Assembly: GCA_014872815.1 (NCBI GenBank) | Contig: WKFK01000015.1 | Span: 124,001-188,000 of the forward strand | Direction: 5' to 3' | Source: Paracoccaceae bacterium | GTDB lineage: Bacteria; Pseudomonadota; Alphaproteobacteria; Rhodobacterales; Rhodobacteraceae | Length of the DNA stretch: 64,000 nucleotides | In this document: in pieces, positions 12,371 through 64,000 of the stretch | Position numbering within the stretch: the stretch's first letter is position 1 | How the letters are laid out: every line of letters starts with the position of its first letter | Made by a program: the position numbers and the translations under genes | The notes under the pieces: model-generated | What the model was told of the DNA's origin: nothing | Databases searched by the model: none | Seen by the model: only the letters and a program-made list of their open reading frames with translations

Positions 12371-14016
12371 CAGGCTTCCTCCCGATCATCGAGCCAATTC
12401 CGCAGGATCTCGACGGTTTCATCTTTGCGATCGTTGATCAGGCCACGGAGGCGATCTGCCGCGTCAGATTGCGACATGCTGCCACCATCCCCGCCCAGCG
12501 CTGGCAAGCCACCGCCCAAGTCAGGAAGGCCACCAACTTCGCCGCCCATGTCGCCGATCGCCATTGGCATGCCCATGTCGCCGCCCATTTCACCCATCAT
12601 CGGTGCCATGGCGGGGAAATCATCATCTCCGCCCAAGTCAGGCAACATTGGAGCGTCGCCAAGTTCATTCAGCTCGCGACTGCCACCGCCAGCCAACAAA
12701 GGCCGCACCACAAACAGTCCCAATACCAGCGCCACAATCGCGAGTACCGCAGTTTGGATGATCGACATCAGATCAAGCTCCATGCCTTTGAACATGGAAG
12801 AATCGGCCGAGGTGCCCATCGGCAGGACTGGCTGAAAATTCATCGATTTCAGGGTGATCACGTCGCCACGGGATTCGTTAAATCCAACCGCGGAGGCCAC
12901 GAGTTCGCGCAACGCTTCCAACTCTTCGTCCGGACGCGGGGTCACAATAGGCTCACCCAGCTCGTTTTCGGTTTGCGTGCCGTTGACCAACACCGCCACG
13001 GTCATACGTTTCACAGCGCCTGGCTGACGCAAAATCTCGCGCTGGGTTTCAGACACCTCATAGTTGATGCGCTCGCGGGTTTCACGATTCTGGTTGGTAG
13101 ACCCGGAATTCTCCGCCGCATCGCCGTCCGGCAAGTTGGAGGCCACAGTCACCTGACCAGACGCGTTTTGGGAATCAGTGCTGCGCTCCTCTGTGTCGGT
13201 ACTGATCGCCACCCGACTGGCAGGATCAAAAATACGTTCAGTGATAGATTCGGTCTCGGTCACAGTTTCGATACTGACTTCGACAACCGCATTGCCCGGA
13301 CCTACGCGCGCTTCCAGCATACGCTGCACGGCCAGACGCGTCTCTTCTTCCTTATTATCACCCACTTTGGTGCTGGTTTCATCCGCCACACCCACCAGAC
13401 CGCCGCTGCCATCAATAATGGCAACATCTTCTGGAGAGAGACCGGAGACCGCAGAGGCCACTAGGAAACGCAGAGCCTGAGCATGTTTGTTGGGCAAATC
13501 CCCGGCAGGTGTTGTGATCGTCACGGAGGCGGACGGTTTGATGTGCCGTTGGAAGGGATTGGAAGAGGCGTTGGCAATATGCACGCGTGCCTGACTGATC
13601 AGCGGGCTAACCACAATTGTACGGGCCAGCTCACCTTCTTTGGCGCGCCAGTAAGCTGCGTCAAACATTTGCGAGGTGGTTCCAAAACCCGAAAGCGAAT
13701 CGAGCAGCTCGTAACCCTGAGTCGTATTTGCAGGCAAACCTTCGCTCGCGAGGGTCATGCGCAGCTCGTCCCGAGCGCCGGACGCCACATAAATGGACCC
13801 GCCGCGCACTTCGTAAATGGCGCCACGTTGTTCTAGCGCGGTGACAACTTCGCCTGCCGCTCCGCTTTCCAAACCACTATATAAAAGGGCCATTCCTGGT
13901 TTTGTGGCGACCCGACCCAACGACAGCACGGTGGCAAAAACCGCGATAGTGGCCAAAACGACGATGACCTTCCGCCGATTGTCCATTGCTGTCCACATAT
14001 TCAAAAATTGTTGCAC
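12370..14016 (-). CDS. fliF: Flagellar MS-ring protein FliF
   Basis: FliF builds the membrane-embedded MS-ring on which the C-ring and export gate assemble. TM1 is near the N-terminus (VIVVLATIAVFATVLSLG). The periplasmic ring-building motifs include LYSGLESGAAGEVVTALEQ, LASEGLPANTTQGYELLD, TIVVSPLISQARVHIA and the RBM3 region. A long linker precedes TM2 (IIQTAVLAIVALVLGLFVVRPLL). The C-terminal cytoplasmic tail ends in the FliG-binding helix DRLRGLINDRKDETVEILRNWL. The frame is open to 14073, but GTG at 14016 (VQQFLNMW) is preferred: it sits behind GGAGAAGAG and gives the usual FliF N-terminus. The linker is Met/Gly/Asp-rich. First gene of its operon. Confidence 0.92.
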   Translation of the reverse strand: MQQFLNMWTAMDNRRKVIVVLATIAVFATVLSLGRVATKPGMALLYSGLESGAAGEVVTALEQRGAIYEVRGGSIYVASGARDELRMTLASEGLPANTTQGYELLDSLSGFGTTSQMFDAAYWRAKEGELARTIVVSPLISQARVHIANASSNPFQRHIKPSASVTITTPAGDLPNKHAQALRFLVASAVSGLSPEDVAIIDGSGGLVGVADETSTKVGDNKEEETRLAVQRMLEARVGPGNAVVEVSIETVTETESITERIFDPASRVAISTDTEERSTDSQNASGQVTVASNLPDGDAAENSGSTNQNRETRERINYEVSETQREILRQPGAVKRMTVAVLVNGTQTENELGEPIVTPRPDEELEALRELVASAVGFNESRGDVITLKSMNFQPVLPMGTSADSSMFKGMELDLMSIIQTAVLAIVALVLGLFVVRPLLAGGGSRELNELGDAPMLPDLGGDDDFPAMAPMMGEMGGDMGMPMAIGDMGGEVGGLPDLGGGLPALGGDGGSMSQSDAADRLRGLINDRKDETVEILRNWLDDREEA

Positions 14017-14078
14017 GTCTCTTCTCCGTGGGATCGCACCTTCTGCACGACCGTCACGAACTGTTTCTCTCAACAGAC

Positions 14079-49926: not shown

Positions 49927-50041
49927 CGCGTTAGGGATTTTACAGCACATTTTGAAGAACATGGACAAAGTCGGGCGCTCCCGGCTTTGTCCACAGGTCT
50001 GACTGTGGCATATTTTCTGCACGTAAACGGAACGAGTACCT

Positions 50042-50614
50042 ATGCATAGACGTCATTTCCTTGCCGCTGGCGCCAGCCTTCTGGCTACTCCGCATATCCT
50101 GCGCGCGGCGCAGAACGACAATTTCGAATTGATGGACCACCTGAAACCCAAAGAGGTGCGGGTGAAAAAGAAGTATGGCTTCCAGCCCGGCCAACTGGTT
50201 GTGGTTCTGGCCTCCTACCATCTGTATCACATGCAGGATGAGCGCAACGCGATCCGCTATGGCGTGGCGATTGGGCAAGAGGGTCTAAACTTCTCCGGAC
50301 GCGCCACTATTGACCGCAAGGTGGAGTGGCCCAGTTGGCGCCCCACCAAAGAGATGATCGAGCGCAACCCACGCTATGCCAGATACGAGGACGGCATGCC
50401 CGGAGGTCCGAACAACCCTCTGGGGTCTCGCGCCATGTACCTCTACCAAAATGGCCGCGACACGCTGTTCCGCATTCATGGCACCACTGCGCCGCAATCA
50501 ATTGGCACACCCAGTTCAAACGGCTGTATCCGCATGGCCAACTGGCACATCGAACAGCTCTATGAGCAGGTGCCCCTGGGCACTGAGGTGATTGTGATCA
50601 GCGGCCGCGAGTAA
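50042..50614 (+). CDS. L,D-transpeptidase (YkuD family), probable Tat substrate
   Basis: The 190-residue protein forms 3-3 or lipoprotein-type cross-links in peptidoglycan. A twin-arginine-like signal (MHRRHFLAAGASLLATPHIL) predicts export. The YkuD domain has GQLVVVLASYHLYHM, AIRYGVAIGQEGLNFSG, and the catalytic signature from HGTTAPQSIGTP to SSNGCIRM, with Cys in SNGCIRM and His in RIHGTT. Residue WPSWRPTKEMIERNP is typical of the ErfK/YbiS group. A bidirectional terminator separates it from the convergent lytic transglycosylase. Confidence 0.92.
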   Translation: MHRRHFLAAGASLLATPHILRAAQNDNFELMDHLKPKEVRVKKKYGFQPGQLVVVLASYHLYHMQDERNAIRYGVAIGQEGLNFSGRATIDRKVEWPSWRPTKEMIERNPRYARYEDGMPGGPNNPLGSRAMYLYQNGRDTLFRIHGTTAPQSIGTPSSNGCIRMANWHIEQLYEQVPLGTEVIVISGRE

Positions 50615-50636
50615 GCCAGACTACCCGAGGCACAAC

Positions 50637-50669
50637 AAAAGGCGCGCCGGATCAGGACGCGCCTTTTTT
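50637..50669. terminator. Bidirectional terminator between L,D-transpeptidase and lytic transglycosylase genes
   Basis: AAAAGGCGCG / CGCGCCTTTTTT with an eleven-base loop lies between convergent stops. The A run on one side and T run on the other serve both strands. Confidence 0.85.
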
Positions 50670-50675
50670 GATGTC

Positions 50676-51947
50676 TTAGCGTAGGGTTTTCAGCAGGGTT
50701 AGAGACGCATATCCGTCTGGCACCATGCCTTCAGCGCGTTGATACTCTCGCACCGCAGCGATGGTGAGCGGGCCGATTTTGCCGTCGATCTTTTTGGTGT
50801 CAAACCCTGCCTTGGTCAGGCGTTTTTGCAGCTCGATCCGCTCTTTGTAGGTCAATGCGCGGTCACCACGGGGCCAGTTCCCTTGAATGGCCGGGCCGCC
50901 CATGATGCGATCACTGAGATGGCCAACACCAATCACATAGGCGTCTGCTGTGTTGTAGTGCTCGATCACGTCAAAGTTCTCAAAGATCATAAAGGCCGCC
51001 CCCTGTGCACCAGCAGGTAACAAGATCGATGCCTTGCCATGGTTGGGCACCGCACGACCGCGCATGTCCTTGATACCCAGACGCGCCCACTCGCTGGGGT
51101 TTTTCAGGTTTTCACGATTGGCAGAGGCGTAATCAAAGCCTTTGGGTAGCTTCACTTCCACGCCCCAGGGCTGGTTCTTCTTCCAACCAAAGTGCTTGAG
51201 ATAGGCGGCGGTGGAGGCGAGCGCGTCAGTTGGGTCACCCGACCAGATGTCACGCTTGCCATCGCCGGTGAAATCCACGGCGTAAGACTGGAAAGACGTG
51301 GGCATAAATTGGGTATGGCCCATGGCGCCCGCCCAGCTGCCTTTCATGTTTTGCGCGGTCACATCGCCGTTTTGCAGGATGCTGAGCGCGGCGGTGAGCT
51401 GTTCCTCAAAGAAGTCGCCGCGCCGCCCGTCATAGGCCAAGGTCGCCAAGGCTTCGATCACTGGCGTGCTGCCTTTGAAGGTGCCATAGGCGCTCTCCAG
51501 ACCCCAGATCGCGACCACAACCTCCTTGTCGACACCGTAACGCTTTTCGATTTTTTGAAGAGTGGCGTTGTGCTTGCTCAGCGCGGCCTTGCCGTTGCGA
51601 ATACGGGCGTCTGAGGCAGCGCTGTCGAGATAATCCCAAATGGTCTTGGTGAACTCGTTTTGATTGCGGTCTTTCTTAATGATGTCGGAGTTGTACTGAA
51701 CGCCTTGGAAGGCTTGATCAAACACCGCGGCGCTGATCCCGGCTTTCAGAGCACGGGATTTGTAGCGCTTGATCCAACGTTGCAGACCTTTGGTAGAGGC
51801 GGCAGCTTCAATGGGCTGTTGCGCCGCCAGAGCATCCGCCACAGGGCGCAGCACAGGCCGGAGAGACTGCGACGGTGCCCCGGCCGAGACCGTGGACGCG
51901 ACCAAGCTGCCAATAACCAAACCCACCAATACCCCAGATATGCGCAT
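50676..51947 (-). CDS. MltB-type lytic murein transglycosylase with peptidoglycan-binding domain
   Basis: The 423 residues (ATG 51947; GTG 51950 also possible) begin with a signal peptide (MRISGVLVGLVIGSLVASTV). The catalytic SLT-2/MltB domain follows: FDQAFQGVQYNSDIIKKDRN, YGVDKEVVVAIWGLESAYGT with the catalytic Glu, STPVIEALATLAYDGRRGDF, and GAMGHTQFMPTSFQSYAVDF. A C-terminal PG_binding_1 domain ends it (GFDTKKIDGKIGPLTIAAVR). It cleaves glycan strands to 1,6-anhydromuramic products in the periplasm. Confidence 0.92.
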   Translation of the reverse strand: MRISGVLVGLVIGSLVASTVSAGAPSQSLRPVLRPVADALAAQQPIEAAASTKGLQRWIKRYKSRALKAGISAAVFDQAFQGVQYNSDIIKKDRNQNEFTKTIWDYLDSAASDARIRNGKAALSKHNATLQKIEKRYGVDKEVVVAIWGLESAYGTFKGSTPVIEALATLAYDGRRGDFFEEQLTAALSILQNGDVTAQNMKGSWAGAMGHTQFMPTSFQSYAVDFTGDGKRDIWSGDPTDALASTAAYLKHFGWKKNQPWGVEVKLPKGFDYASANRENLKNPSEWARLGIKDMRGRAVPNHGKASILLPAGAQGAAFMIFENFDVIEHYNTADAYVIGVGHLSDRIMGGPAIQGNWPRGDRALTYKERIELQKRLTKAGFDTKKIDGKIGPLTIAAVREYQRAEGMVPDGYASLTLLKTLR

Positions 51948-52010
51948 CACAACTTTCCCTGCCTCATTTTGAGGAAGTGTAGCGCGGGGATGGGGGTGGC
52001 AAAAGCGCTC

Positions 52011-52727
52011 TCAGCCAGAGGCGCGGGGATTTGCCGATGCGTCTATTTCTGCCTGAAGCCGCGCTTTGAACTCCCGCAACATGGGAATACGGCGCGGGCG
52101 GAAGGAGCGGTCACTGAGATTGAGGTTGTCCATACGATCAAGGCGAAAAGCCCGATAATCTGCGCGCAGGTGGCAATAGGCCAGAAGGCAGTGCACATTC
52201 TGCATGAACACGATGGAGAGCGGATCGACCTCCCGGGTGGTGCGTCGTCCTTCGGCATCGCCATAGTCAAAGGCCACAGTCCGCTCTTCCCAGGCGGCTT
52301 GGCGCAGGGCACCGGCGTCGATTGTGATCTCTGGCGGCTTGTGAAAGCGTTTGGCGGTCAGAACGGCATGTTTCAGGCGATGCGCCTGGGCCTCCGGAAG
52401 ACGCGATTTCAGCTTGGTTAGAGCCGTTTTTGCGGCGTTGGCGAGGGATGGATCAGCCACTTCCATAACCTCTTTGAGCCCAACCACCAGCGCCTCAATT
52501 TCTTCAGGCACAAAGCCCAAGGGCGGCAGAGTGGCGTCTTCAATAAGAGTGAATCCGAAGCCAGCCTCCCCGTCAATTACGGCACCGAGGCTGCGCAGGC
52601 TGTCGATGTCGCGGTAGATTGTGCGCTCGGACACGCCGGTTTCCTGCGCCAGGGCTTGCGCGGTGGCGGGGGGCGGCAGGTCGCGCAGGGCCTGCATGAG
52701 TTGGAACAGTCGGTCGGTGCGGCTCAT
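52011..52727 (-). CDS. HTH-WYL transcriptional regulator (YafY-like)
   Basis: From ATG 52727 the protein has 238 residues: an HTH_11 domain (RLFQLMQALRDLPPPATAQA, TGVSERTIYRDIDSLRSLGA), a linker, and a WYL ligand-sensing domain (AWEERTVAFDYGDAEGRRTT, EVDPLSIVFMQNVHCLLAYC, HLRADYRAFRLDRMDNL). The two intergenic starts are only 86 bases apart from the divergent GST gene, so the pair probably forms a regulator-target unit. The ligand is unknown. Confidence 0.88.
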   Translation of the reverse strand: MSRTDRLFQLMQALRDLPPPATAQALAQETGVSERTIYRDIDSLRSLGAVIDGEAGFGFTLIEDATLPPLGFVPEEIEALVVGLKEVMEVADPSLANAAKTALTKLKSRLPEAQAHRLKHAVLTAKRFHKPPEITIDAGALRQAAWEERTVAFDYGDAEGRRTTREVDPLSIVFMQNVHCLLAYCHLRADYRAFRLDRMDNLNLSDRSFRPRRIPMLREFKARLQAEIDASANPRASG

Positions 52728-52813
52728 GATTTTGGGATACTGCACCCTACTGACAGAAACTGACAAGAGGGGTGTTTAAGACGGGCTCCACAATCAATCA
52801 GTGGAGAGTTCCC

Positions 52814-53548
52814 ATGCACCTTATTGTTTTCCCCGGCGACGCGCAGTTTCCCACCCATTCGCCATTCTGCCTGAAGGCCATGTGCCTGTTGGAAATGGCC
52901 AAGGTCGACTGGCAGCCAGAGCTGATCCAGGACTTTGAAGCGCTGCCTCTCGGCAAGGTGCCCGTGGCTCGGGTTGGCGATGCCTTGATCCCGGACAGCC
53001 ACAACATTCAGGCCTATTTAGAGTCTAATGGCGCGGATTTCATGCCGGGCTTGAGCCGGATTGAGAAGGCGGCAACGCATGCCCTGATCCGCACCGTGGA
53101 AGAGAGCCTGCGTCTTGGGCTGGTGCATGATCGCTGGCTGAACGACGACTGCTGGGCCGTGATGAAGGAGATCTTCTTTGCCGCGGTGCCTGCGCCGATG
53201 CGAGATCAGGCGGCAGAAGACGCGCGTGATCATGTGCGGGCTGGCCTGATGTCCGAAGGCATCGCGCGGTTCTCACCCGAAGACCGGCAGGCGCGGTTTG
53301 ACAAAGATCTGGAGGTGATTGACGCCAAACTCGACGGGCTGTCGTTCCTGTTTGGCGACACGCCAACAGCCGCAGATGCGGCGGTCGCGCCGGTTCTGGA
53401 TATGATCCTGACCTTGCCGGTGGCCACCGACCTGCGCAAAGCGGTTGAGGCCCGTCCCGCGCTGGCGGCCTATGTGGCGCGCGTGCGGGAGGCAATTTAT
53501 CCGGATCCGGCGCGGGTGATGGCCGCGTTTAGCGCCGCCGCCGAGTGA
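52814..53548 (+). CDS. Glutathione S-transferase family protein
   Basis: The 244 residues begin MHLIVFPGDAQFPTHSPFCL, an N-terminal thioredoxin domain with Ser-Pro-Phe-Cys at the usual active segment. LGKVPVARVGDALIPDSHNI is the glutathione gamma-Glu site. The helical domain (RTVEESLRLGLVHDRWLNDD) ends with FGDTPTAADAAVAPVLDMIL. The ATG at 52814 follows GTGGAGAG. Its stop overlaps the convergent RNase R gene by 20 bases. It is likely under the neighbouring WYL regulator. Confidence 0.85.
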   Translation: MHLIVFPGDAQFPTHSPFCLKAMCLLEMAKVDWQPELIQDFEALPLGKVPVARVGDALIPDSHNIQAYLESNGADFMPGLSRIEKAATHALIRTVEESLRLGLVHDRWLNDDCWAVMKEIFFAAVPAPMRDQAAEDARDHVRAGLMSEGIARFSPEDRQARFDKDLEVIDAKLDGLSFLFGDTPTAADAAVAPVLDMILTLPVATDLRKAVEARPALAAYVARVREAIYPDPARVMAAFSAAAE

Positions 53549-55796
53549 CTTTGCGTTTGGTCTTGGCCGCCTTGTGCTTTGCCTTGGCGGCCTTGCGACG
53601 GATGGGGCCTCCACGGCCCCGCCCTTTTCCGCCACCACGTCCGGCGCGTTTGACCAACTCGCCATCCAGTGAGATCAGTTCCAGCGCGATGCCACCCGTC
53701 ACCGGGGCGGCCTCGGTCAGACGAGCCGTCACGCGTTGGCCGAGACCAATCACGATGCCCGTGTCCGATCCGGTGAGTGTGTTGGTTTCGCTGTCAAAGT
53801 GGAAATACTCCCGGCCCAGTTCTCGCATCGGGATCAGGCCATCAGCGCCGGTTTCATCCAGCTTCACAAACACGCCAAAGCGGGCAATGCCGCTGACGCG
53901 CCCGGTGAATTCATTGCCGATGCGCTCTGACATATAGGCGGCGAGGTAGCGATCCGTGGTGTCGCGTTCCGCCAACATCGAGCGGCGTTCGGTGTCCGAG
54001 ATATGCGTGGCGGTTTTCTCGAGCACTTCGGTGGCCTCGGGTGTGAGGCCGTCGTCACCCCAGCCGTGCGCCGAAATGAGCGCACGGTGTACGATCAAGT
54101 CTGCATAGCGACGGATCGGGGAGGTGAAGTGGGCATAAGCGCGCAGCGCGAGGCCGAAGTGGCCGAAGTTGGACGGCGCATAGTACGCCTGTGTCATGGA
54201 GCGCAGGGTGGAGATGTTGATCAGCTCCGCCTGTTCCGTGCCTGCGGCGGCATCCAGCAACTGATTCAAATGCCGGGTTTGCAGCACCTGACCTTTGGCC
54301 AGTGTCAGGCCGGCGGCCTGGGCGGTGTCACGCAGGGCGTTGAGTTTTTCAGGGCTGGGTTCCTCGTGCACGCGGAACAGCAGCGGGGACTTCTTGGCAA
54401 TCAGCGTTTCAGCGGCACAGACATTGGAGAGCACCATGAACTCTTCGACCAGCTTGTGCGCGTCAAACCGGTCACGGAAGTTCACAGAGGTGACTTCGCC
54501 TGCATCAGAGAGCTCAATTTTGCGCTCCGGCAGGTCAAGCGCCAGCGGCTGACGTTCGGCTTTTGCCTTTGTTAGAGCCTCATATGCGGCATAAAGCGGG
54601 CGGATGATTTCATCCATCAAAGGCGCACAGCGCTCGTTTGGATGACCGTCTTGTGCCTGTTGCACTTCGCCGTAGTTCAGCGAGGCCACGGAACGGATCA
54701 TAGCGCGGGTGAACCGATGGCCGATCTTTTTGCCCTTGCTGTCGATCTGAATGCGCAGAGCCAGCACAGCGCGGGGCACGCCTTCGTGCAGGGAACACAG
54801 ATCGCCAGACAGGCGGTCCGGCAGCATTGGCACCACGCGGTCCGGGAAGTAGCTGGAGTTGCCGCGCTTACGGGCCTCGCGGTCCAGCGCGGTGTCGGAT
54901 CGCACGTAGTGCGCCACATCGGCGATCGCGACCCAGAGCACATGGCCGCCTTCATTTTTGGGATCGTCATCCGCGTGGGCCCAGCAGGCGTCATCGTGGT
55001 CGCGCGCATCCGCCGGATCGATGGTGACAAAGGGCATGTCGCGCAGGTCTTCGCGTTGGCCCAAAGGCGCCGGTTTGGCCTTATCAGACTCTGATATGAC
55101 CTCATCCGGGAAGGTGTCCGGGATGCCATGTTGGTGGATCGCGATGAGGCTCACGGCCTTGGGTGCGGTGGGATCTCCAATGCGGGCCACCACGCGGGCG
55201 CGCGGCAGACCAAGGCGGCCTTTGGGACCGGATTGTTCGGCCTCGACCAGCTCACCATCTTTGGCACCATGGGTTTGATCGGAAGCCACGGACCATTCTT
55301 TGCCGTCGCCCTTGTCAATTGGCAGAATGCGGCCACCCTCGGCGGTCTTGCGGAACATGCCCAGCACGCGGCGCGGGTTGGTGCCGATGCGGCGGATCAG
55401 CCGGGCCTCATATTGAATGTCGCCGTCGTCCAGTTTGCTCAGACGCCCCAGAATACGGTCGCCCGCACCCAGCGCTGGATCGGACGCGCGGGGCAGCACC
55501 AGAATTTTGGGCTCTTCGCCTTCGCCGTGCCATTCCAGTGGGCGGGCAAAGAGATCGCCATCGGCATCTGCCTCAAGGATTTGCAGCACAGTGACCGGCG
55601 GCAGGCTTTCCGGATCGCGGTAGGTCTTGCGCCGCTTTTGCAGGTGCCCTTCGGCCTCCAGCTCCTTGAGCAGGCGCTTCAGATCGATGCGCGCAGCCCC
55701 TTTGATGCCAAAGGCTTTGGCGATGTCACGTTTGGAGGTGAGGGTCGGGTTCTCGGAAATCCACTCAAGGACTTCCTCTTTGCTGGGCATAGGCAT
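53529..55796 (-). CDS. rnr: Ribonuclease R
   Basis: RNase R is a 3'-5' exoribonuclease. The 755 residues include a winged-helix start (LTSKRDIAKAFGIKGAARID), cold-shock/OB domains (ILEADADGDLFARPLEWHGE, VVARIGDPTAPKAVSLIAIH), the RNB core with VTIDPADARDHDDACWAHAD, whose Asp cluster binds two metals, and an S1 domain (EFTGRVSGIARFGVFVKLDE). A Lys/Arg-rich tail of about 40 residues (GRGGGKGRGRGGPIRRKAAK and on) is typical of RNase R and helps unwind structured RNA. Its 3' end overlaps the convergent GST gene. Confidence 0.95.
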   Translation of the reverse strand: MPMPSKEEVLEWISENPTLTSKRDIAKAFGIKGAARIDLKRLLKELEAEGHLQKRRKTYRDPESLPPVTVLQILEADADGDLFARPLEWHGEGEEPKILVLPRASDPALGAGDRILGRLSKLDDGDIQYEARLIRRIGTNPRRVLGMFRKTAEGGRILPIDKGDGKEWSVASDQTHGAKDGELVEAEQSGPKGRLGLPRARVVARIGDPTAPKAVSLIAIHQHGIPDTFPDEVISESDKAKPAPLGQREDLRDMPFVTIDPADARDHDDACWAHADDDPKNEGGHVLWVAIADVAHYVRSDTALDREARKRGNSSYFPDRVVPMLPDRLSGDLCSLHEGVPRAVLALRIQIDSKGKKIGHRFTRAMIRSVASLNYGEVQQAQDGHPNERCAPLMDEIIRPLYAAYEALTKAKAERQPLALDLPERKIELSDAGEVTSVNFRDRFDAHKLVEEFMVLSNVCAAETLIAKKSPLLFRVHEEPSPEKLNALRDTAQAAGLTLAKGQVLQTRHLNQLLDAAAGTEQAELINISTLRSMTQAYYAPSNFGHFGLALRAYAHFTSPIRRYADLIVHRALISAHGWGDDGLTPEATEVLEKTATHISDTERRSMLAERDTTDRYLAAYMSERIGNEFTGRVSGIARFGVFVKLDETGADGLIPMRELGREYFHFDSETNTLTGSDTGIVIGLGQRVTARLTEAAPVTGGIALELISLDGELVKRAGRGGGKGRGRGGPIRRKAAKAKHKAAKTKRKVTRRRR

Positions 55797-55855
55797 GGGT
55801 TGGCCCTAGCACGGAGATGCGAGGAGGTCACGTGGAGAAAACTGGGTACAGGCAA

Positions 55856-55919
55856 GGGGCCAGCCCCTTCTTGGGCTTGCGGCCCAATTCAACCCCGGGA
55901 TATTTGGGAAGGAGAAAGA
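55856..55919 (+). repeat. GC-rich palindrome plus GATATTT element, copy 2
   Basis: GGGGCCAGCCCC (55856-55867), then, after 22 bases, AACCCCGGGATATTTGGGAAGGAGAAAG. The parts match the element at 7284-7331 in order and spacing class. It lies between the rnr start and the stop of the neighbouring transferase gene. Confidence 0.6.
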
Positions 55920-56498
55920 CTAGAGGCGCGCCAGATCGGCAGCGGTGTCCACATCTGCCAGCGTGGCGATGGTGGCAATGCGCGCACCCCACAGGGTAGC
56001 ACGGCTGTCGGCCAAGGCATGTTCCGTAGACCAGCGCACATTTGCAAAGAGCCCGGGCTTTGGCGCGTGTTTCAAACCCACCAGCCAATAGCCACCGTCC
56101 GGCGCGGGGCCAAAGACCGCATCATGATCGCCTAGCGCTTTGAAGGCCTGTGCGATGTGGGGCAGTTGAATGCCGGGGATGTCAGCCCCAATGATGCAGG
56201 TTGGGCCTTGGTGGAAACGCAGCTGCCGTGCCATGCGATCACCGAGATTGCCAGTGCCTTGCGGTACACGCGGCAGATGGGCGGGCCAAACGCGCGACGT
56301 CAGGCCCCTGTAATCCGGTGCAACGGCCAGGATCAGGTTCCATCGATGATCCTCAAGACGGCGCAACAGCGCGGTAGATTGATGACGAAACCACCAGGCG
56401 GCGGTGGTCATGCCGAGGTCGCGGCCCAAACGGGTTTTCACCCGGCCAGGGCGTGGCTCCTTGATCATCACCACAAGGTTGGGGCGGGTTTTAGGCAA
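55920..56498 (-). CDS. DUF2064-type glycosyltransferase (TIGR04282-like)
   Basis: The 182-192 residue protein has the nucleotidyl/glycosyl-transferase-like fold of the DUF2064 family: [39 protein letters not shown] and [20 protein letters not shown]. The start is uncertain: TTG at 56498 (inside the dapE stop region), GTG at 56474/56471 or ATG at 56468 all keep the conserved [10 protein letters not shown]; further upstream the frame runs antisense-like through dapE. The enzyme activity is not established. It follows dapE with an eight-base overlap if TTG is used. Confidence 0.78.
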
Positions 56499-57636
56499 AA
56501 TAGTCTCGCAAAATGCGGCTGTAGATGTCTTTGAGCTGATGGATCTGCGCAACCGGCACCTGTTCATCCACCTGATGCATGGTTTTGCCCACGAGACCAA
56601 ATTCCACCACCGGGCAATGGTGCTGAACAAAGCGGGCGTCCGAGGTGCCGCCGGAAGTGGAAAGTTCCGGGCGACGACCGGTTTCTGCTTCCACAGAGGA
56701 AGCGACCAGTTCGGACAAATCACCCGGAGGGGTGATGAAGCTTTCGCCGGAGATGGTGACTTTCATGTCGATGCCAACACCAGTTTCCGCCGAAATAGTG
56801 TCTACTTTTGTCTGCATCCACTCTGTGAGAGACGCGCCGGAGTGGGAATCGTTGAAGCGGATGTTGAGTGTGGCTTTGCACTCTGCCGGGATCACGTTGG
56901 TGGCCGGGTTGCCGGTGTCCATGGTGACAACCGCCAAGGTAGACGCATCAAAATGATCGGTGCCGTTGTCCAGAGGCTCGGAGGAGAATTGGTCCATCAG
57001 GCGCGCCATCACCGGCAGCGGGTTGTTGGCGCGGTGCGGATAGGCGGAATGCCCCTGTTTACCGGTGAAGGTGAAATAGGCGGTCATCGAGCCGCGTCGG
57101 CCAATTTTCATCATCTCCCCCATCTCGTTGGGGCAGGTTGGCTCCCCCACAAGACAGACGGACATGCGCTCCTGCTCGGTGGACATATAGTCCAGCAAAG
57201 CTGTGGTGCCGTCGATGGCGTCGCCTTCTTCATCGCCAGTGATGGTGAGAATGATTGCGCCCTCTGGCGGCGTGTTAGAGACAAAATCAATGGCGGCGGC
57301 GGCAAACGCGGCGATGCCGGATTTCATATCAGTGGCCCCACGGCCATACATGATGCCGTCTTTGATCTCCGCGCCAAAGGGATCAACCGTCCAGGCGGCT
57401 TCGTCCCCCACCGGCACAACGTCCGTATGGCCATTGAAACCAAAAGTTTTGCTGTCACCCTTACGCCCCCAGCGGGCAAAAAGGTTGCTGACGTTACCGC
57501 GATCCACACGGGCACATTCAAACCCGGCGTCAGACAGCCGCTTTTCCAGCAAGACCAGCGCCCCGCCCTCCTCCGGCGTCACAGAGGGACAGCGGATCAA
57601 ATCAGCAGTCAACTGTGCGGCATCGGTCTTGGTCAT
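56491..57636 (-). CDS. dapE: Succinyl-diaminopimelate desuccinylase DapE
   Basis: DapE removes succinate from N-succinyl-LL-diaminopimelate in the lysine/peptidoglycan pathway, upstream of DapF. From ATG 57636 the 381 residues show the dizinc M20 features: [20 protein letters not shown] (zinc His-Asp), [20 protein letters not shown] (bridging Asp), [20 protein letters not shown] (catalytic Glu), [27 protein letters not shown] and, at the end, [20 protein letters not shown]. An extended start at 57717 has no support. Confidence 0.95.
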
Positions 57637-57927
57637 GGCGGGCGTCCTCTGGTTGTCAGTGTTGCGAGGAAGGTTGTGGCACAGCTGTGCCTGACCCGAA
57701 AGCCACATTTCAAACACAAAGCGGTGCGGTGCCCCTTAACAAGCGGAAAAATTTCCTGTTTATTTGTAGTTAATAAAAACCGACCGAGGCAGGTCACCAG
57801 CAGTTCGGCTAAAACAGCCAAAGGTTTCCAAAGAACGCATCACGAAATGCGACGAAACCCGATTGAGCGCCCTGTGAGCAGGTGGGGTTGTTGTGTGGCG
57901 TGCCTCAAACACATGAGGCGAGCAGAC
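57637..57927 (+). other. Intergenic region before the first Hint-domain gene
   Basis: This 291-base gap between dapE and the divergent Hint gene has no supported gene. It contains an AT-rich block at 57735-57782 with GGAAA-AA-TTTCC (57745-57756), a short inverted repeat, and TTAATAAAAACC. It is the only place for both promoters. Confidence 0.4.
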
Positions 57928-59496
57928 ATGCCCAGATTGCCCGTAAACACCGGCGCTTCGGCCATGGATATGGCGGAAACCATTTTTAGTGATGACGTGA
58001 CCATCGTGTCCGCCAGCTACAATGGGCAAAACTCCTCCTCCGGCATCTACTCGAATGGCGATACCATCTCACCCGGCGTCACGCCGAGTGATGAAGGCGT
58101 GATCCTGTCCACGGGCCGTGCAAACAATTTCACCAATCGGTGGGGTGGCTACAACCAGCGCACCAACCGATCCACAGACACCAATGGTGAGAACAACAAC
58201 CCGGAGTTCAACGCGGTTGCGGGCACAAACACTTATGATGCGTCTTACCTGGATGTGTCGTTTGAAGCCTCCGAAGCCGGTCAAATGACCATGCAGTTTG
58301 TCTTCGCCTCTGAAGAATACCCGGAATACATCAACTCAATCTATCAGGACTTTGTCGCGGTTTCGATTAATGGAGACTACGTGCCACTGGAAATTGGCGA
58401 TGGCGATGTGGATCCGGGCAACATCAACAACGGCGAAAACGAGAGCCTTTTTGTCAATAACACCGGCGGCATCTACAACACGGAGATGGATGGGTTCACC
58501 ATCACGATGACGCTGACGTTTGACATTGTTGAAGGCATGAACGACCTGCGGATTGTCATCGCCGATGTGTCCGACAGCCAATATGACAGTTCCTTGTTGA
58601 TCGCGGCAGACTCGGTTCAAACTTCCCTGATCGCCAACACCGACCTAGTAGATCTTCCAATCGATGGCACGCGTACGGTGGATGTGCTCGCCAATGACGT
58701 CAACGAAACCGGCAATTCACTGACCATCACCCATATTTCCGGCCAACCCGTCACGGTTGGGTCGCCGATCACCTTACCAAGCGGGCAGGTTATCACCGTA
58801 AACGGCGATGGCACGATCACGTTTGAAGGCGACAGTGACGAAGAAGAGGTCAACCTGACCTACACTGTAGATGATGGCAACGGCACCACAGATGTCGGCT
58901 ACATCACCATCAACCAAGCGCCGTGTTTCACTGCGGGCACGTTCATTCGCACGCCGCACGGCGAGGTGCCGGTTGAATGCCTGAATGTTGGTGATCTGGT
59001 TGAGACGCTGGATTGCGGGCCACAGCCTCTGCGCTGGATCGGACGCCGCAAAGTGCCCGCCACTGGTCCACTTGCGCCCATCCGAATCATGGCCGACACG
59101 CTGGGCAATCACCGCGAACTTCTACTGTCGCCTTTGCATCGCGTTTTGATCCGCAACGCTTGGGCGGAGCTCTTATTTGGTGAAGAGGAGGTGCTTGTTG
59201 CAGCCCGTGATCTGGTGAATGACAAAACCATTCGCCGCGTGCCGGGGGGCGAAGTTGAGTATGTGCACCTCCTGTTTGATGACCACCAAATTATCTTCTC
59301 TGAAAAGCTGATGACCGAAAGCTATTTGCCGGGCCCGCAGACGGCGAGCAGTTTTGAACCGGAAATCGTGGCAGAGATCTGCGCCATTTTCCCGGAACTC
59401 GATCCTATATCCGGCGAAGGCTATGGCAAAATGGCGCGCCGTGGGTTGCGCAGCTTTGAGGTCGCCACACTTTCGCAAATTGCCTTCCAGAACTGA
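57928..59496 (+). CDS. Choice-of-anchor-L plus Hint-domain secreted protein (copy 1)
   Basis: From ATG 57928 (522 aa) the N-terminal ~220 residues resemble choice-of-anchor-L proteins: VILSTGRANNFTNRWG, QFVFASEEYPEYINSIYQDF, VAVSINGDYVPLEIGDGDVD and DGFTITMTLTFDIVEGMNDL. A bacterial Ig/cadherin-like segment follows (RTVDVLANDVNETGNSLTIT). The C-terminal Hint domain starts at PCFTAGTFIRTPHGEVPVEC with Cys333, and has QPLRWIGRRKV, LLSPLHRVLIRNAWAELLFG and YVHLLFDDHQIIFSEKLM. In related proteins Cys starts an autocatalytic N-S acyl shift. There is no classical signal peptide, so type I export is likely. The frame open to 56404 overlaps dapE and is rejected. Confidence 0.86.
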   Translation: MPRLPVNTGASAMDMAETIFSDDVTIVSASYNGQNSSSGIYSNGDTISPGVTPSDEGVILSTGRANNFTNRWGGYNQRTNRSTDTNGENNNPEFNAVAGTNTYDASYLDVSFEASEAGQMTMQFVFASEEYPEYINSIYQDFVAVSINGDYVPLEIGDGDVDPGNINNGENESLFVNNTGGIYNTEMDGFTITMTLTFDIVEGMNDLRIVIADVSDSQYDSSLLIAADSVQTSLIANTDLVDLPIDGTRTVDVLANDVNETGNSLTITHISGQPVTVGSPITLPSGQVITVNGDGTITFEGDSDEEEVNLTYTVDDGNGTTDVGYITINQAPCFTAGTFIRTPHGEVPVECLNVGDLVETLDCGPQPLRWIGRRKVPATGPLAPIRIMADTLGNHRELLLSPLHRVLIRNAWAELLFGEEEVLVAARDLVNDKTIRRVPGGEVEYVHLLFDDHQIIFSEKLMTESYLPGPQTASSFEPEIVAEICAIFPELDPISGEGYGKMARRGLRSFEVATLSQIAFQN

Positions 59497-59541
59497 GGCG
59501 ATGATGGACCGTAAGCTCACAGCATTTCGGAGGCATTCCCA

Positions 59542-60648
59542 ATGAGCTGGATTGCGCTATGGGATCGTAAGCAGGCGCTGTTTGATGGTGGCGGCCTGGC
59601 ACGGCTTTGTGCTGGCTCGGCAGCGGGCGAACAGCCATTGTCCCCCGTTTCAAACGACCCGATGACTCAGGGCAGTTTGGTCGTCGAAACGCGCGTATCC
59701 CCATATGATCGTCCACAGACCCTGTTGGGCATCGCATCACAAACCGGGAGCGGGTTTCGCCTTTCGTTGCAGGCTGTCCCCGGCGGGGGGGTGGTGTTGG
59801 TGCTGACCCGAGGCGGACGCACGGCCCATGTGGCCGTCAATCTTGACACCGGCGGGCGGGCGGATGTTTTGCGCATCACCTATTCTTGGGATCTTCAGGC
59901 CAATGTCGGGCGATTGGCGGTTGAACAACCTGGCACTTGGCGTGTTGCGGTGCGCACGTTGACGAAACCTGTCGCGTTGACGATGGCAGAGGCACAGGAA
60001 TGTGTAAAAGATGACGCCGCCCGCGTGATTTCCGGTGACTTGTCTTTCATCGCTTTCTCAGATCGCATTGAACCCATCGGGCCGATGCCAAGCTTGTCTG
60101 AGGACACGCCGGTGATGACAGCAGACGGCTATCAGAAAGTCAGCGAATTGCAACGTGGGGATGTGGTGCAGACCCCCACTGGCGATCTGGTTCCTGTGCT
60201 TGCCAACATCCGCCGCACTGTGCCGGCTGCCGGACTTTTTGCGCCGATCCGACTGCGCGCGCCGTTTTTTGGTTTGAGCCGCGATATCATCACCAGTCCA
60301 ACACAGAGGCTCGTGATTGGGGGCAGCCGGGTTGAATACATGTTTGGCTCTGAATGCGTGCTGATCCCGGCAGGACATCTCCTGCACGGCAACGCGGCGA
60401 CCAGTGGCGGCACAACCCCCTTGGCGACCTACTGCCAACTCTTGCTGCCGAATCATGAGGCCATATTGGCCGCCGATACTTATGTGGAAAGCATGGACGT
60501 CGGCCGCATGCGTCGCCGTCGTGACCTGTTAAACGCCAGTCTGTTGTCAGGATACCCGCGCCGTCTATTGCCAGAGCACGCGCGCACTGCATTTCCGGTC
60601 TTGCGGGAGTTTGATGCCCTCACATTGGCAGCACAGCGCGCGGCCTGA
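59542..60648 (+). CDS. Hint-like protein with LamG-type N-terminal part, key residues replaced
   Basis: The 368 residues lie 45 bases after copy 1. The N-terminal half is beta-rich and LamG-like (GSLVVETRVSPYDRPQTLLG, LRITYSWDLQANVGRLAVEQ). The C-terminal half follows the Hint layout: PSLSEDTPVMTADGYQKVSE, LQRGDVVQTPTGDLVPVLAN, APIRLRAPFFGLSRDIITSP, TQRLVIGGSRVEYMFGSECV and LLLPNHEAILAADTYVESMD. Ser184 stands where the paralogues have the essential Cys, and TQR replaces the LHR/NHR His. It is therefore expected to be non-splicing or altered. Family membership is clear by layout. Confidence 0.8.
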   Translation: MSWIALWDRKQALFDGGGLARLCAGSAAGEQPLSPVSNDPMTQGSLVVETRVSPYDRPQTLLGIASQTGSGFRLSLQAVPGGGVVLVLTRGGRTAHVAVNLDTGGRADVLRITYSWDLQANVGRLAVEQPGTWRVAVRTLTKPVALTMAEAQECVKDDAARVISGDLSFIAFSDRIEPIGPMPSLSEDTPVMTADGYQKVSELQRGDVVQTPTGDLVPVLANIRRTVPAAGLFAPIRLRAPFFGLSRDIITSPTQRLVIGGSRVEYMFGSECVLIPAGHLLHGNAATSGGTTPLATYCQLLLPNHEAILAADTYVESMDVGRMRRRRDLLNASLLSGYPRRLLPEHARTAFPVLREFDALTLAAQRAA

Positions 60649-60664
60649 TGACCCTGTCATCGAC

Positions 60665-61036
60665 TCAGTGCTCGGTGGCCGCCGTATCCCCAGATTCCTC
60701 TCCGTGATAAAACGGAGTCATCTGCGCCACGACCACGGAGTTTTCATCCAGAGCCCGCTGCATCAGGCCGCGCTCTTGACCGTCAATCTCATGACCCTGC
60801 GCTTCCCGCTCTTCAATGGTGCCGTAGCCTGTCACATCCAACGGGTTCAGATCCGCCTGCTTAAGAATCGCAACCGTTTCACGCACTGCCTCTGCTTCAT
60901 CCACACCGCTGGCATAGATCATCAACGCACCGCCGGTGGCATCCTCCGGCAGGCCATCACCGTCTTTCCGGCCCACCTGCACCAAAAGCGTATAGACCTG
61001 CTGACGGGTTTTCTTCTTTTTCTTGTCTTGTGTCAT
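60665..61036 (-). CDS. Conserved hypothetical protein
   Basis: From ATG 61036 the protein has 123 residues (MTQDKKKKKTRQQVYTLLVQ). It starts with a run of five lysines. A mixed alpha/beta part follows (VGRKDGDGLPEDATGGALMI, YASGVDEAEAVRETVAILKQ, ADLNPLDVTGYGTIEEREAQ), and it ends in an acidic tail. There is no TM or signal. I do not recognise a function. It lies convergent to the Hint-like gene, with 16 bases between stops. Confidence 0.7.
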   Translation of the reverse strand: MTQDKKKKKTRQQVYTLLVQVGRKDGDGLPEDATGGALMIYASGVDEAEAVRETVAILKQADLNPLDVTGYGTIEEREAQGHEIDGQERGLMQRALDENSVVVAQMTPFYHGEESGDTAATEH

Positions 61037-61384
61037 GACGGTGCCTTTCTGTTGAACCGGCCTTAACGTGCAGCATGGCAAATGGTCAACTGCCCGTCCT
61101 TGAGGCATAAGTGGCTGCCAAACCAACTTCCAATAATTTACTTCGATTTTTCAGCGTCTTGATGATCTTAGTCACCATTTAGAAAGAGTTGCATTCCAAA
61201 CTGTTAGCGCGCAGAACGTGCCCTCTTTCTTTTGGACGCATACGAATCCTCTGTCGGCGCATTCGGCGCTGGATCAAGTTCTTGCTCTCTGTCTTGGAGC
61301 GATCACGCGGGATGTCGTCACGTCGCAAAGGAACCGGGGCCGGAATGCCATTTTTGGGTTTGGGAATACGTATAGGGGACCAAC
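61037..61384 (+). other. Intergenic region before the second Hint-domain gene
   Basis: Some 348 bases with no convincing gene; the open frames here (for example from 61189) have strongly basic composition and overlap the next gene out of frame. The left part (61125-61200) is AT-rich and probably carries the divergent promoters. I see no clear -35/-10 pair. Confidence 0.4.
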
Positions 61385-62965
61385 ATGCCGACCGCATCAG
61401 AATTGCCAATCGACAACAGCGCCAGCGCGAGTCAAATGGCAGAGGCCATGTTTGGATCGGGCATCACAATTATCGATGCCGACTACACCGGCCATTATAT
61501 GTCTAGCGGGATTTATTCGGACGGTGATACCGTAGCACCCGATGCCACCCCATCGGACAGCGGTGTGATCCTGTCCACCGGCTATACCAAAGACTTCACG
61601 AACACGACTGGCGACGTGAATGTAAACAGCGGCACCACTGGTCAGATGGGCACCGGAGGCGACGCCGATCTTACAGCCATGTCCGGTGGCACCACCTATG
61701 ACGCTGCCGTGTTCCAAGCCTCCTTCGTTCCAGACGGCGACACACTGACAATGCAGATCGTGTTTTCGTCGGAAGAATACTTGGAATATGTCGACAACGG
61801 CTTCAACGACGCAGTTGGGATTTGGGTCAACGGCGAAAAGGCCACCCTGTCGATTGGCGATGGCGACATCACCGTCGACAATATCAACAACGAAGACAAC
61901 GCAAACCTGTACCTCGACAACCCGGCAGACGGCGAGACCGTGAACAGTGAGATGGACGGTTTGACCGTTACATTGACCGTTAAGGCACCAGTAACGCCGG
62001 GTGAAGTTAACACCATCAAAATTGGCATCGCGGATTCTGGTGACGATCAATACGACTCCAACCTTTTGATCGCCGGGGATTCGATCCAGTGCGCCCTTGT
62101 CGCTCAGGATGATGAATATGAAATTGGCGCTGGTGCCACCAAAACCGTAGACGTTCTTGCCAACGATTCCGCCCCAGATGGGGCGACAATGACCATTACC
62201 AAAATCAACGGCCAGGAGGTCAACGCCGGCGATTCTGTCACCCTTGCCTCCGGTGAGATCGTGACCTTGAATCCCGATGGCACGCTGTCCATTGAAACCG
62301 ACAATGACCTGGGCAGCGAAGCCTTCACCTATGAAGTCGAAGATTCCGACGGCAACACAGACACCGGTTTTGTAAAAGTCACCACGACCACGGCGCCTTG
62401 CTTTGTGGCTGGAACAGAAATTGTGACCCAAGACGGGCTGATGAAAGTGGAAGACTTGATGCCCGGTCATAAGGTTCTGACACGTGACAACGGCTTCCAG
62501 CCTTTGCTCTGGATCGGCACAACCGTGCGGCAGGCGACAGGGCCTGACGCCCCCATCCGCCTCGCGAAGGATGCACTGGGCAACCACGAAGCGGTGGAGT
62601 TCTCTCCCAATCACCGTATTCTGATCAAATCCTCTCAGGCGGCCATGTTGTTTGGCGAATCCGAAGTGCTGGTGAAAGCCAAAGATCTGGTGAACGGCGA
62701 CACAATCACCGTGCGCGAAGATCATGGTCCTGTGACCTATGTGCACATTCTGTTTGACCGCCACGAGATTGTCCGCGCCAACGGGCTAGACAGCGAAAGC
62801 TACCATCCGGGACAGGAAACACTCGATAGTTTTGACGCAGAGACCCGCGATGAAATCCTGCGACTTATGCCAAACTCAGATGCTTTGATGGGCTATGGCT
62901 TTGGACCGTCCGCGCGTATTTCACTTCGCAAATATGAGGCCGAAGCGCTGATAACCGCAGCTTAA
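61385..62965 (+). CDS. Choice-of-anchor-L plus Hint-domain secreted protein (copy 2)
   Basis: The 526 residues are a paralogue of the product at 57928, with the same domain order. N-terminal marks: YMSSGIYSDGDTVAPDATPS, VILSTGYTKDFTNTTGDVNV, MQIVFSSEEYLEYVDNGFND, LSIGDGDITVDNINNEDNAN. Cadherin/Ig-like part: TKTVDVLANDSAPDGATMTI. The Hint domain begins PCFVAGTEIVTQDGLMKVED with Cys339; then QPLLWIGTTVRQATGPDAP, EFSPNHRILIKSSQAAMLFG and YVHILFDRHEIVRANGLDSE. The asparagine expected at an intein C-terminus is absent, so cleavage without ligation is expected. ATG 61385 follows AGGGGACC. A secreted, self-processing role is inferred. Confidence 0.87.
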   Translation: MPTASELPIDNSASASQMAEAMFGSGITIIDADYTGHYMSSGIYSDGDTVAPDATPSDSGVILSTGYTKDFTNTTGDVNVNSGTTGQMGTGGDADLTAMSGGTTYDAAVFQASFVPDGDTLTMQIVFSSEEYLEYVDNGFNDAVGIWVNGEKATLSIGDGDITVDNINNEDNANLYLDNPADGETVNSEMDGLTVTLTVKAPVTPGEVNTIKIGIADSGDDQYDSNLLIAGDSIQCALVAQDDEYEIGAGATKTVDVLANDSAPDGATMTITKINGQEVNAGDSVTLASGEIVTLNPDGTLSIETDNDLGSEAFTYEVEDSDGNTDTGFVKVTTTTAPCFVAGTEIVTQDGLMKVEDLMPGHKVLTRDNGFQPLLWIGTTVRQATGPDAPIRLAKDALGNHEAVEFSPNHRILIKSSQAAMLFGESEVLVKAKDLVNGDTITVREDHGPVTYVHILFDRHEIVRANGLDSESYHPGQETLDSFDAETRDEILRLMPNSDALMGYGFGPSARISLRKYEAEALITAA

Positions 62966-63020
62966 AGGGCAAAAACCCCCTGTTAGAGCCATAAAACCTC
63001 AGGTCATCCGCATAGCGTGG

Positions 63021-63048
63021 TTGACCGGCTCAAGGAGTGCGCGATAGG
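63021..63048 (+). promoter_or_regulatory. Possible promoter of the channel gene
   Basis: TTGACC (63021-63026) and GATAGG (63043-63048) are 16 bases apart, upstream of the ATG at 63076. The -10 match is poor. Confidence 0.25.
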
Positions 63049-63075
63049 GGGAGGCAAGCAACTTCGGTACTGACT

Positions 63076-64000
63076 ATGCGCTTCCTCCCCGCAGCCTTGA
63101 TCTGTCTCCTCTCCGTCCTGTCGTGGACGTCCAGCGGTTCTGCACAATCGCCAGATACTTTGACATTTGCCACTGTGGACCGTCCGCCGTTTGTCTTCTT
63201 AGATGACAACACACCGCGCGGCTTCAGCGTGGATTTGATCCGTGCCATCGCAGAAGATCTGGGCAAAGAGATCACCTTTGCGCCGCAGGACAGCTTCCCC
63301 GACATGTTAAGCGCAGTGGAAGCGGGCACAGTTGATGGTGCTATTGCCAACATTTCGATCACCGCGTCGCGCGAAACGGTGATGGATTTCAGCCAACCGA
63401 TTTTTGAAAGCGGCATTCAGATCCTGCTGCCATCCGAGCCCGGCAGCCTAGCGCGAATTGGCGGGCTGCTCACCCGGGAAATCCTCACCGCCATTATGGT
63501 GGCCTTGGGGATGCTGTTTGGCGGCGGAATGTTGATGTGGTTTTTTGAACGGCGGCATCAGCCGTATTTCGATCGCCCCGCCAAAGATGCCCTGTTCCCG
63601 TCTTTCTGGTGGGCGCTCAATCTGGTGGTAAACGGCGGCTTTGAAGAGCGCATGCCTCTGTCCCGCCCGGGTCGGTTCTTTGCAGTGATCCTCGTCGTGG
63701 CCAGCCTGTTTGTTGTCTCTGTCTTTGTGGCAACGATCACTGCCGCCGTGACGGTAGAGGCGTTGCAGGATTCGGTGGACAGCATCAACGATCTGGACGG
63801 TCGCAAAGTGGGCTCTGTGCGCGGATCTACTTCTGCGCAGTTCCTGACAACACGGGACATCCGCTTCCGTGACTTTGACTCGCCGCACGAACTCCTGGCT
63901 GCGTTTCAGGATGGGGACATCGATTCTGTTGTGTTTGACGGGCCAATCCTTGCGTATTTTGCCACCAACGATGGCCGCAATGAGTCCCGCTTGATTGAAC
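63076..64000 (+). CDS. Prokaryotic ionotropic glutamate receptor-like channel (truncated by window edge)
   Basis: The 308 visible codons start with a signal peptide (MRFLPAALICLLSVLSW). Then comes the first lobe of a periplasmic SBP_bac_3-type clamshell (LTFATVDRPPFVFLDDN, ISITASRETVMDFSQPIFES with Arg99 in the amino-acid carboxylate position). The lobe is interrupted by TM1 (residues ~135-156), a pore-loop segment (FPSFWWALNLVVNGGFEERM) and TM2 (~200-227). The second lobe resumes with LDGRKVGSVRGSTSAQFL. This is the order of GluR0-like ligand-gated channels. Where GluR0-type pores read GYGD, this one reads GFEE (residues 188-191), so selectivity is doubtful. The Shine-Dalgarno is weak. The rest of lobe 2 is missing. 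Confidence 0.82.
   Translation, partial: MRFLPAALICLLSVLSWTSSGSAQSPDTLTFATVDRPPFVFLDDNTPRGFSVDLIRAIAEDLGKEITFAPQDSFPDMLSAVEAGTVDGAIANISITASRETVMDFSQPIFESGIQILLPSEPGSLARIGGLLTREILTAIMVALGMLFGGGMLMWFFERRHQPYFDRPAKDALFPSFWWALNLVVNGGFEERMPLSRPGRFFAVILVVASLFVVSVFVATITAAVTVEALQDSVDSINDLDGRKVGSVRGSTSAQFLTTRDIRFRDFDSPHELLAAFQDGDIDSVVFDGPILAYFATNDGRNESRLIE

Follow-up and report, generated by a model that had tools for sequence, protein, structure and literature searches.

The window analysed here is a stretch of 64,000 nucleotides (G000:C3:124001-188000; assembly GCA_014872815.1, contig WKFK01000015.1) from the genome of a Paracoccaceae bacterium whose nearest named relatives are Shimia (Rhodobacterales). 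Towards its end lie three genes, here called P1, P2 and P3, whose products all contain Hint domains (Table 1). A preliminary description of this DNA had presented them as a three-protein Hint cluster in which two active-looking paralogues surround an inactive-looking protein; the open frames, domains and residues are as it described them, and its interpretation is partly supported. Our data show that P1 and P3 have intact Hint residues and that P2, encoded directly after P1, has lost both catalytic positions and is conserved in that state across most of its family. Such conservation of a dead Hint copy suggests that it has a job of its own.

Intact and degenerate Hint domains

All three proteins score above the curated cut-off of the Hint_2 family (PF13403; 28.4 bits), P1 with 169.1 bits, P3 with 162.1 bits and P2, through residues 184-319, with 93.3 bits; the corresponding Pfam E-values are 1.1e-49, 1.5e-47 and 2.5e-26. 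P1 and P3, which are 46% identical, are also members of the choice-of-anchor L (anchor-L) family (NF038133, cut-off 27 bits; 133.8 and 169.0 bits, respectively) and harbor an immunoglobulin-like (Ig) domain matching Big_9 (cut-off 23.6 bits; 35.1 and 49.4 bits). As a control for chance, 900 shuffled sequences (300 per protein) were compared with a purpose-built Hint profile of 11 rows, and none matched at E<=10. Since this profile includes P1 and P3, though not P2, it is the Pfam E-values that serve as independent evidence. In the source genome Hint proteins are not rare, as it encodes 14 Hint_2 domains; its anchor-L proteins number three (P1, P3 and L007), each with a Hint_2 domain.

The Hint residues are complete in P1 (Cys333 and the motif S401-P-L-H404) and in P3 (Cys339 and SPNHR). 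In an alignment of 75 rows (A4), comprised of P1, P3, 62 P1 homologues and 11 of 17 full-length P3-type homologues, 74 rows begin the Hint domain with Cys, the exception being a Tyr in L074, and all 75 have the block-B His. P1 and P3 thus have the residue-1 Cys or Ser and the block-B His of an autoprocessing Hint domain, and profiles and residues agree that they are the two intact paralogues, with anchor-L, Ig-like and Hint parts, that had been recognized at the outset. An AlphaFold2 model of P1 has a mean predicted local distance difference test score (pLDDT) of 79.1 and a predicted template modelling score (pTM) of 0.55, with the domain arrangement unsure; in this predicted model Cys333 superposes on Hedgehog residue 258 and on intein residue 1.

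In P2, Ser184 stands in the column of the catalytic Cys and T254-Q255-R256 replaces the His motif, as previously noted, and the family has been conserved in this inactive-looking form. The alignment used here (A3) contains 80 rows, namely P2 and 79 of 80 P2 loci, the partial L097 being left out; because the locus set consists of the best 80 of 111 confirmed relatives, its counts hold for the nearer members of the family. The Cys position is occupied by Ser in 28 rows, Thr in 23, Gly in 22 and Ala in 7, and never by Cys, while the block-B His position is Gln in 78 rows, Ala in one and Lys in one, and never His. Moreover, the position of P1 Asp451 is Pro in 79 of 80 rows; the second His (P1 453) is retained in 73. 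Given the mixture at position 184, Ser in the window copy is one among several tolerated residues, and it is the Gln that is near-fixed. P2 thus lacks the residue pair of autoprocessing Hint domains of the Hog, bacterial intein-like (BIL) or intein type, and the block-F Cys of class 3 inteins, at position 298, is found in just 22 of the 80 rows. The proposal that the middle protein is a Ser-based variant was dropped, as Ser is not conserved and the His is lost in all 80 rows; class 3 intein chemistry was rejected on the count for Cys298. Among the fully invariant P2 positions, Ser173 is the sole Lys, Cys, Ser or Thr.

The fold, by contrast with the catalytic residues, is retained. The AlphaFold2 model of P2 has a mean pLDDT of 93.2 and a pTM of 0.91, and in it residues 178 to ~321 match Hint structures over the whole domain: the Z-scores are 13.7 to the Ssp DnaB intein (6frh, 122 residues), 13.4 to a BIL domain (2lwy, 118 residues) and 11.0 to Hedgehog (1at0, 121 residues). 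Residue 184 falls on Hedgehog residue 258 and, in several structure rows, on intein residue 1. The LamG-like character given earlier to the P2 N-terminus holds at the level of the fold, residues 1-181 of the predicted model resembling CBM40 and sialidase lectin domains with Z ~11, and is not borne out by domain profiles, as no Pfam or NCBIfam family matched this region. The likeness is to a common sandwich fold and indicates no ligand; a comparison with neurexin LNS gave an E-value of 5e-5 with low TM-scores.

Three further Hint_2 proteins of the source genome bear on these residue patterns. L011 (G000:C8:63445-63855) has Ser at the first Hint position and keeps the block-B His (SPDHR), and by its residues would be a better candidate than P2 for a Ser-type Hint domain. 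L012 (G000:C3:195123-195530) and L014 (G000:C8:108914-109315) are short Hint_2 proteins (222-residue frames) without the block-B His; degenerate Hint_2 lineages beyond P2 may therefore exist.

P2 also differs from P1 and P3 in charge, with a median isoelectric point (pI) of 8.7 (range 5.5-10.1) in P2 rows and 4.09 (4.05-4.47) in P1/P3 rows, and tail pI values of 11.3 and 4.7, respectively. A motif common to the P1 and P2 tails gave an hhalign E-value of 8.5e-5 in a single comparison, at a probability of just 60. None of the three proteins has a strongly hydrophobic N-terminal stretch; the best 15-mers in the first 45 residues of P1 and P3 have Kyte-Doolittle values of 0.81 and 1.08. Substrates of type I export are as a rule acidic in composition and lack a signal peptide, and P1 and P3, acidic and without such a hydrophobic stretch, would fit this route. 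P2 may stay inside the cell. The nearby type I exporter that had been envisaged was not found close to P1 or P3 in a search that left aside HlyB-type, HlyD and TolC models: the sole ATP-binding cassette protein over the PrtD cut-off lies at C3:790740, ~600 kb from the window on the same contig.

Conservation of the P1-P2 locus

In 62 of the 80 loci P2 is directly preceded by P1, with gaps that range from -26 to +66 nucleotides and include 4-nucleotide overlaps in 13 loci; the 45 nucleotides of the window are near the wide end of this range. Upstream, 79 of 80 loci have the divergent gene dapE on the minus strand (the remaining one, L097, starts inside P2), and 65 have a recognisable copy of the small minus-strand gene DUFm after P2. 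The preliminary description stated that its reading would be refuted if the orthologues were never found together; P1 and P2 recur as neighbours, so this is not the case. The three genes, however, are not a unit. P3 is cut off from P1-P2 by the opposite-strand gene at 60665-61036, on which ground a single operon of three genes was rejected, and a full-length P3-type gene follows P2 in just 17 of 80 loci.

A survey of 246 genomes of the family, nearly one per genus, recovered P2 at a threshold of E<=1e-30 in 95 genomes (96 matches). Anchor-L genes were surveyed with rows down to E 1.8e-36 (102 of 111 genomes), and among the matches listed an anchor-L gene stands directly upstream of P2 in 62 of the 95 P2-positive genomes, a P3-type anchor-L gene stands downstream in 15, and 28 have no strong anchor-L match. 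Twenty loci with diverged P2, taken from the 45 weakest of the 96 matches (E from 1.7e-60 up), have the same surroundings, with dapE adjoining in 20/20, the small minus-strand gene in 18/20 and P1 directly before P2 in 12/20. In 40 further regions, taken from 35 genomes in which anchor-L matched strongly and P2 was not found at E<=1e-30, a diverged P2 follows P1 in 12. P1-P2 is thus a conserved two-gene unit whose pairing is strong and old yet not obligate in either direction; strict pairing was rejected both ways, since P2 occurs without P1 and P1 without P2, and neither strictly needs the other.

P2 is under purifying selection. The ratio of nonsynonymous to synonymous substitution rates (dN/dS, NG86) is 0.02-0.13 in the 11 P2 pairs computed, compared with 0.02-0.13 for P1 and 0.03-0.16 for P3, synonymous sites being near saturation in the wider pairs. 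In all but one of the 80 loci the P2 frame is 351-371 residues long, and the exception is truncated by a contig end. With purifying selection and full-length frames, P2 is unlikely to be a pseudogene. In a tree of 65 Hint domains (52 from P2 and 13 intact rows; L167, at a contig end, and L165 were left out) P2 is separated from the intact rows by a branch with 100/100 support, though support is weak on many inner branches. Because P2 constitutes a separate clade with a long stem, its origin as a recent tandem duplicate of P1 was rejected. Judged by its residues, the P2 family runs from apparently complete members to dead ones and is dead in most members seen: where the Cys is lost in diverged P2, its position holds Gly, Ser, Thr or Ala, or else Trp, which stands there in four of 32 (L157, L165, L170 and L177).

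Table 1 Features of the Hint_2 locus, numbered from the first nucleotide of the window.
Feature	Position	Strand	Description
dapE	56491..57717	-	Divergent neighbour marking the conserved P1-P2 locus; start is that of the longest frame
P1	57928..59496	+	522 residues; anchor-L 15-230, Ig/Big_9 235-329, Hint_2 332-469, C-terminal tail 470-522
P1 Cys333	58924..58926	+	Opens the Hint domain; Cys in 74/75 P1/P3 rows; aligns with Hedgehog 258
P1 His404	59137..59139	+	Block B, SPxHR; His in 75/75 P1/P3 rows
P2	59542..60648	+	368 residues; LamG/CBM40-like 1-181, pseudo-Hint_2 184-319, conserved basic tail 322-368
P2 Ser184	60091..60093	+	Catalytic Cys position; S28/T23/G22/A7 in 80 rows
P2 Gln255	60304..60306	+	Block-B His position; Gln in 78/80 rows
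DUFm	60665..61036	-	Small conserved gene between P2 and P3; no Pfam/NCBIfam match over cut-off
P3	61385..62965	+	526 residues; anchor-L, Ig/Big_9, Hint_2; second intact paralogue, separate transcription unit
P3 Cys339	62399..62401	+	Opens the Hint domain

Around the locus, a TIGR04282 glycosyltransferase-like gene (55920-56723, minus strand) lies between rnr and dapE, and a gene of this kind adjoins dapE also at several diverged P2 loci. By Pfam, fliF, encoding the flagellar M-ring protein, is located at 12370-14073 (minus strand), and an Rfam search of 50000-64000 gave no match over gathering scores. Among the relatives, L100 (JAFKDC010000028.1) has a typical Rhodobacterales dapE-P2 locus in a record labelled Enemella evansiae, an actinobacterial name; the label or assembly looks wrong.

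Possible roles of P2

The explanation that we favour, and hold tentatively, is that P1-P2 combines an active-type Hint protein with a catalytically dead one and that Hint_2 proteins have in P2 a non-catalytic partner. It starts from the observed domains, residue loss, conservation, selection, predicted fold and adjacency, and from these we infer that P1 and P2 are transcribed together, that export occurs, that P1 and P3 are cleaved, and that P2 is inert and acts as a partner. P1 and its paralogue P3 are acidic anchor-L/Ig proteins with a C-terminal Hint_2 domain bearing Hedgehog/intein-type residues. P1 most likely leaves the cell, whereupon Cys333 would perform an N-to-S acyl shift that either releases the anchor-L/Ig part or hands it to a nucleophile. 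P2, which is basic in most homologues and probably made together with P1, should not cleave itself, as it is without Cys and His; it most likely holds or escorts a Hint_2 precursor, or times its reaction, acting through its pseudo-Hint and LamG-like surfaces. A bolder form of this idea, possible but in our judgement doubtful, is that P2, with its contrasting charge, binds active Hint_2 proteins of its own cell in trans and controls the timing or place of self-processing for the whole Hint_2 repertoire. If true, this would make P2 a protein dedicated to regulating Hint chemistry, beyond P1 alone.

Of the 246 survey genomes, 217 have Hint_2. The other 29 yielded no P2, an absence that is circular in part, since a P2 counts as a Hint_2 match in its own right. 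Every one of the 95 P2-positive genomes has at least 4 Hint_2 matches besides P2. Counted among the matches listed (up to ~15, P2 excluded), with diverged P2s taken as absent, the mean is 11.3 in P2-positive genomes vs 7.8 in the 122 P2-less bearers, with a Mann-Whitney p of 4e-12 that is overstated, as shared ancestry is uncorrected. These counts fit a P2 that serves Hint_2 proteins generally at least as well as one bound to P1.

The circularity and the overstated p both weigh against a partner role, as do several observations on the proteins and loci themselves. Seventeen of the 79 informative loci have P2 but no P1; dapE is kept upstream in all 17, so these are the same locus with P1 missing. 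An adjacent P1 is lacking in 18 genomes, of which 17 were searched for anchor-L (L122 was left out and the uninformative L097 included), and no anchor-L match was found in 12, five of which are metagenome assemblies and possibly incomplete; all 17 gave 4 to 13 P1 matches, mostly via the Hint part and with P2 possibly included. Conversely, in 9 of the 40 anchor-L regions P1 is next to dapE and no P2 could be recognised (L152, L154, L161, L163, L174, L175, L182, L186 and L187). In L152, L154 and L163 another gene takes the place of P2 between P1 and the small minus-strand gene; by eye, it has substrate-binding or channel-like, glutamate-receptor-like features. Degeneracy of P2 is not universal either, since the Cys is kept in 3 of 32 diverged P2 (L137, L160 and L167, the last of which ends before the His position) and the block-B His in 5 of 32 (L125, L126, L127, L131 and L160). 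L160 (G105) thus keeps both, at a standard locus directly after P1; it is nested among dead members in the tree, which implies more than one loss. The P2 of the window is near neutral (34 Asp+Glu, 36 Lys+Arg). Finally, Pro precedes the catalytic Cys in 73 of 75 P1/P3 rows (58921-58923 in P1). A Pro at this place is unfavourable in inteins and unusual for an N-S acyl shift site, and fast cleavage of P1 is therefore not assured.

Other roles for P2 have to be weighed against that of a non-catalytic partner. P2 might be a stand-alone protein of the LamG/CBM40-like sugar-binding type, its Hint fold and tail serving as an export or anchoring module without cleavage and its adjacency to P1 reflecting common regulation rather than binding. 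The CBM40/sialidase lectin fold of residues 1-181 (Z ~11), an end motif similar to that of P1 and the 12 of 17 genomes with no P1 and no anchor-L match agree with this. We nonetheless consider it somewhat unlikely: the near-fixed Gln255 and the conserved Hint core exceed what a passive module needs, P2 is mostly basic where P1 and P3 are uniformly acidic, and its gene pair with P1 is tight and often overlapping. P2 could also be an acyl acceptor, the anchor-L/Ig part of P1 being passed from Cys333 to a P2 nucleophile or a P2-bound sugar and so fixed to the surface. Anchor-L domains are named for their varied C-terminal anchors, and in P1 the Hint domain stands where such an anchor would be; the gene pairing and the sugar-binding type fold would suit an acceptor as well. 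Yet this role is improbable, given that 28 of 95 survey genomes and 12 of 17 others have no strong anchor-L match and that, Ser173 apart, P2 has no fully invariant Lys, Cys, Ser or Thr.

It is equally improbable that only the Hint domains of P1 and P3 act and that P2 is a relic with no part in the pathway, which has persisted by chance or through selection acting on a neighbour. Although the sequence of P2 for the most part changes faster than that of P1, and some genomes have P1 with no P2 next to it, P2 has frames of even length (351-371 residues in 79/80 loci), its dN/dS is far below 1, and it has been retained beside dapE in 17/17 informative loci from which P1 is gone. Least probable of all, and by our estimate very much so, is an active Hint domain in P2 with an unusual nucleophile, either Ser184 or, in the manner of class 3 inteins, a Cys in block F. 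The window copy does have Ser184 and a block-F-like Cys298, and an excerpt of a published account describes inteins that replace the block-B His as well as class 3 inteins without residue-1 nucleophiles (PMC7664689). Across the family, however, 29 of 80 rows carry Gly or Ala at position 184, just 22 have a Cys at position 298, 79 have Pro as the counterpart of P1 Asp451 and, in four of 32 diverged P2, the Cys position holds Trp.

Relation to known Hint proteins

The open-access literature searched, outside which most subscription papers lie, contained no functional study of PF13403, nothing on choice-of-anchor L, nothing joining a Hint domain with roseobacters and no conserved dead Hint domain; the novelty of P2 is accordingly provisional. 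An excerpt of one study reports that PF13403 is enriched in those marine Rhodobacteraceae that respond with strong growth (PMC12487129); the family is also mentioned in PMC4189754. P1, P2 and P3 all score as Hint_2 proteins of this kind, and P2 differs from them in the loss of both catalytic positions. With 14 copies in the source genome and a presence in 217 of 246 family genomes, Hint_2 is a large family for which the same literature gave no function, and the P1-P2 pair offers a small, testable entry to it.

The Ig domain of P1 resembles a domain beside or in the peptide-binding region of the repeats-in-toxin (RTX) adhesins FrhA (Z 11.3, 27% identity) and MpAFP (Z 10.9), although, unlike these, P1 matched no RTX repeat family in Pfam or NCBIfam and has no exporter found nearby. 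The Hog domain of Hedgehog is alike in fold (Z 11.0 to 1at0 for both P1 and P2), with Cys333 on Hedgehog 258, but P1 is bacterial and carries an anchor-L/Ig cargo, and P2 is without Cys and His. BIL domains are likewise similar in fold, the Z-scores to 2lwy being 13.1 for P1 and 13.4 for P2. In a sequence search of solved structures the matches were only weak, 2lwy with the P1/P3 profile at E 0.0065 and the gp41-1 intein at E 0.16; hits to a beta-trefoil, RhoB, a chaperonin and other solved structures were judged to be chance. BIL domains mostly cleave rather than splice, according to an excerpt of PMC7664689; cleavage of P1 and P3 is predicted from their residues and P2, unlike a BIL domain, would be inert.

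Hint domains are usually regarded as units that process themselves in a single turnover and are either functional or in decay. The inactive intein of Arthrobacter Arth_1007, termed a pseudogene in an excerpt of PMC3196547, is an example of a Hint fold that, like P2, is said to be inactive. P2 differs in being a conserved orthologous family under purifying selection: its chemistry has been lost and its domain kept at one locus across the family, mostly paired with an intact Hint protein. This pattern, found for no other member of the Hint superfamily in the literature searched, is that of a pseudoenzyme partner.

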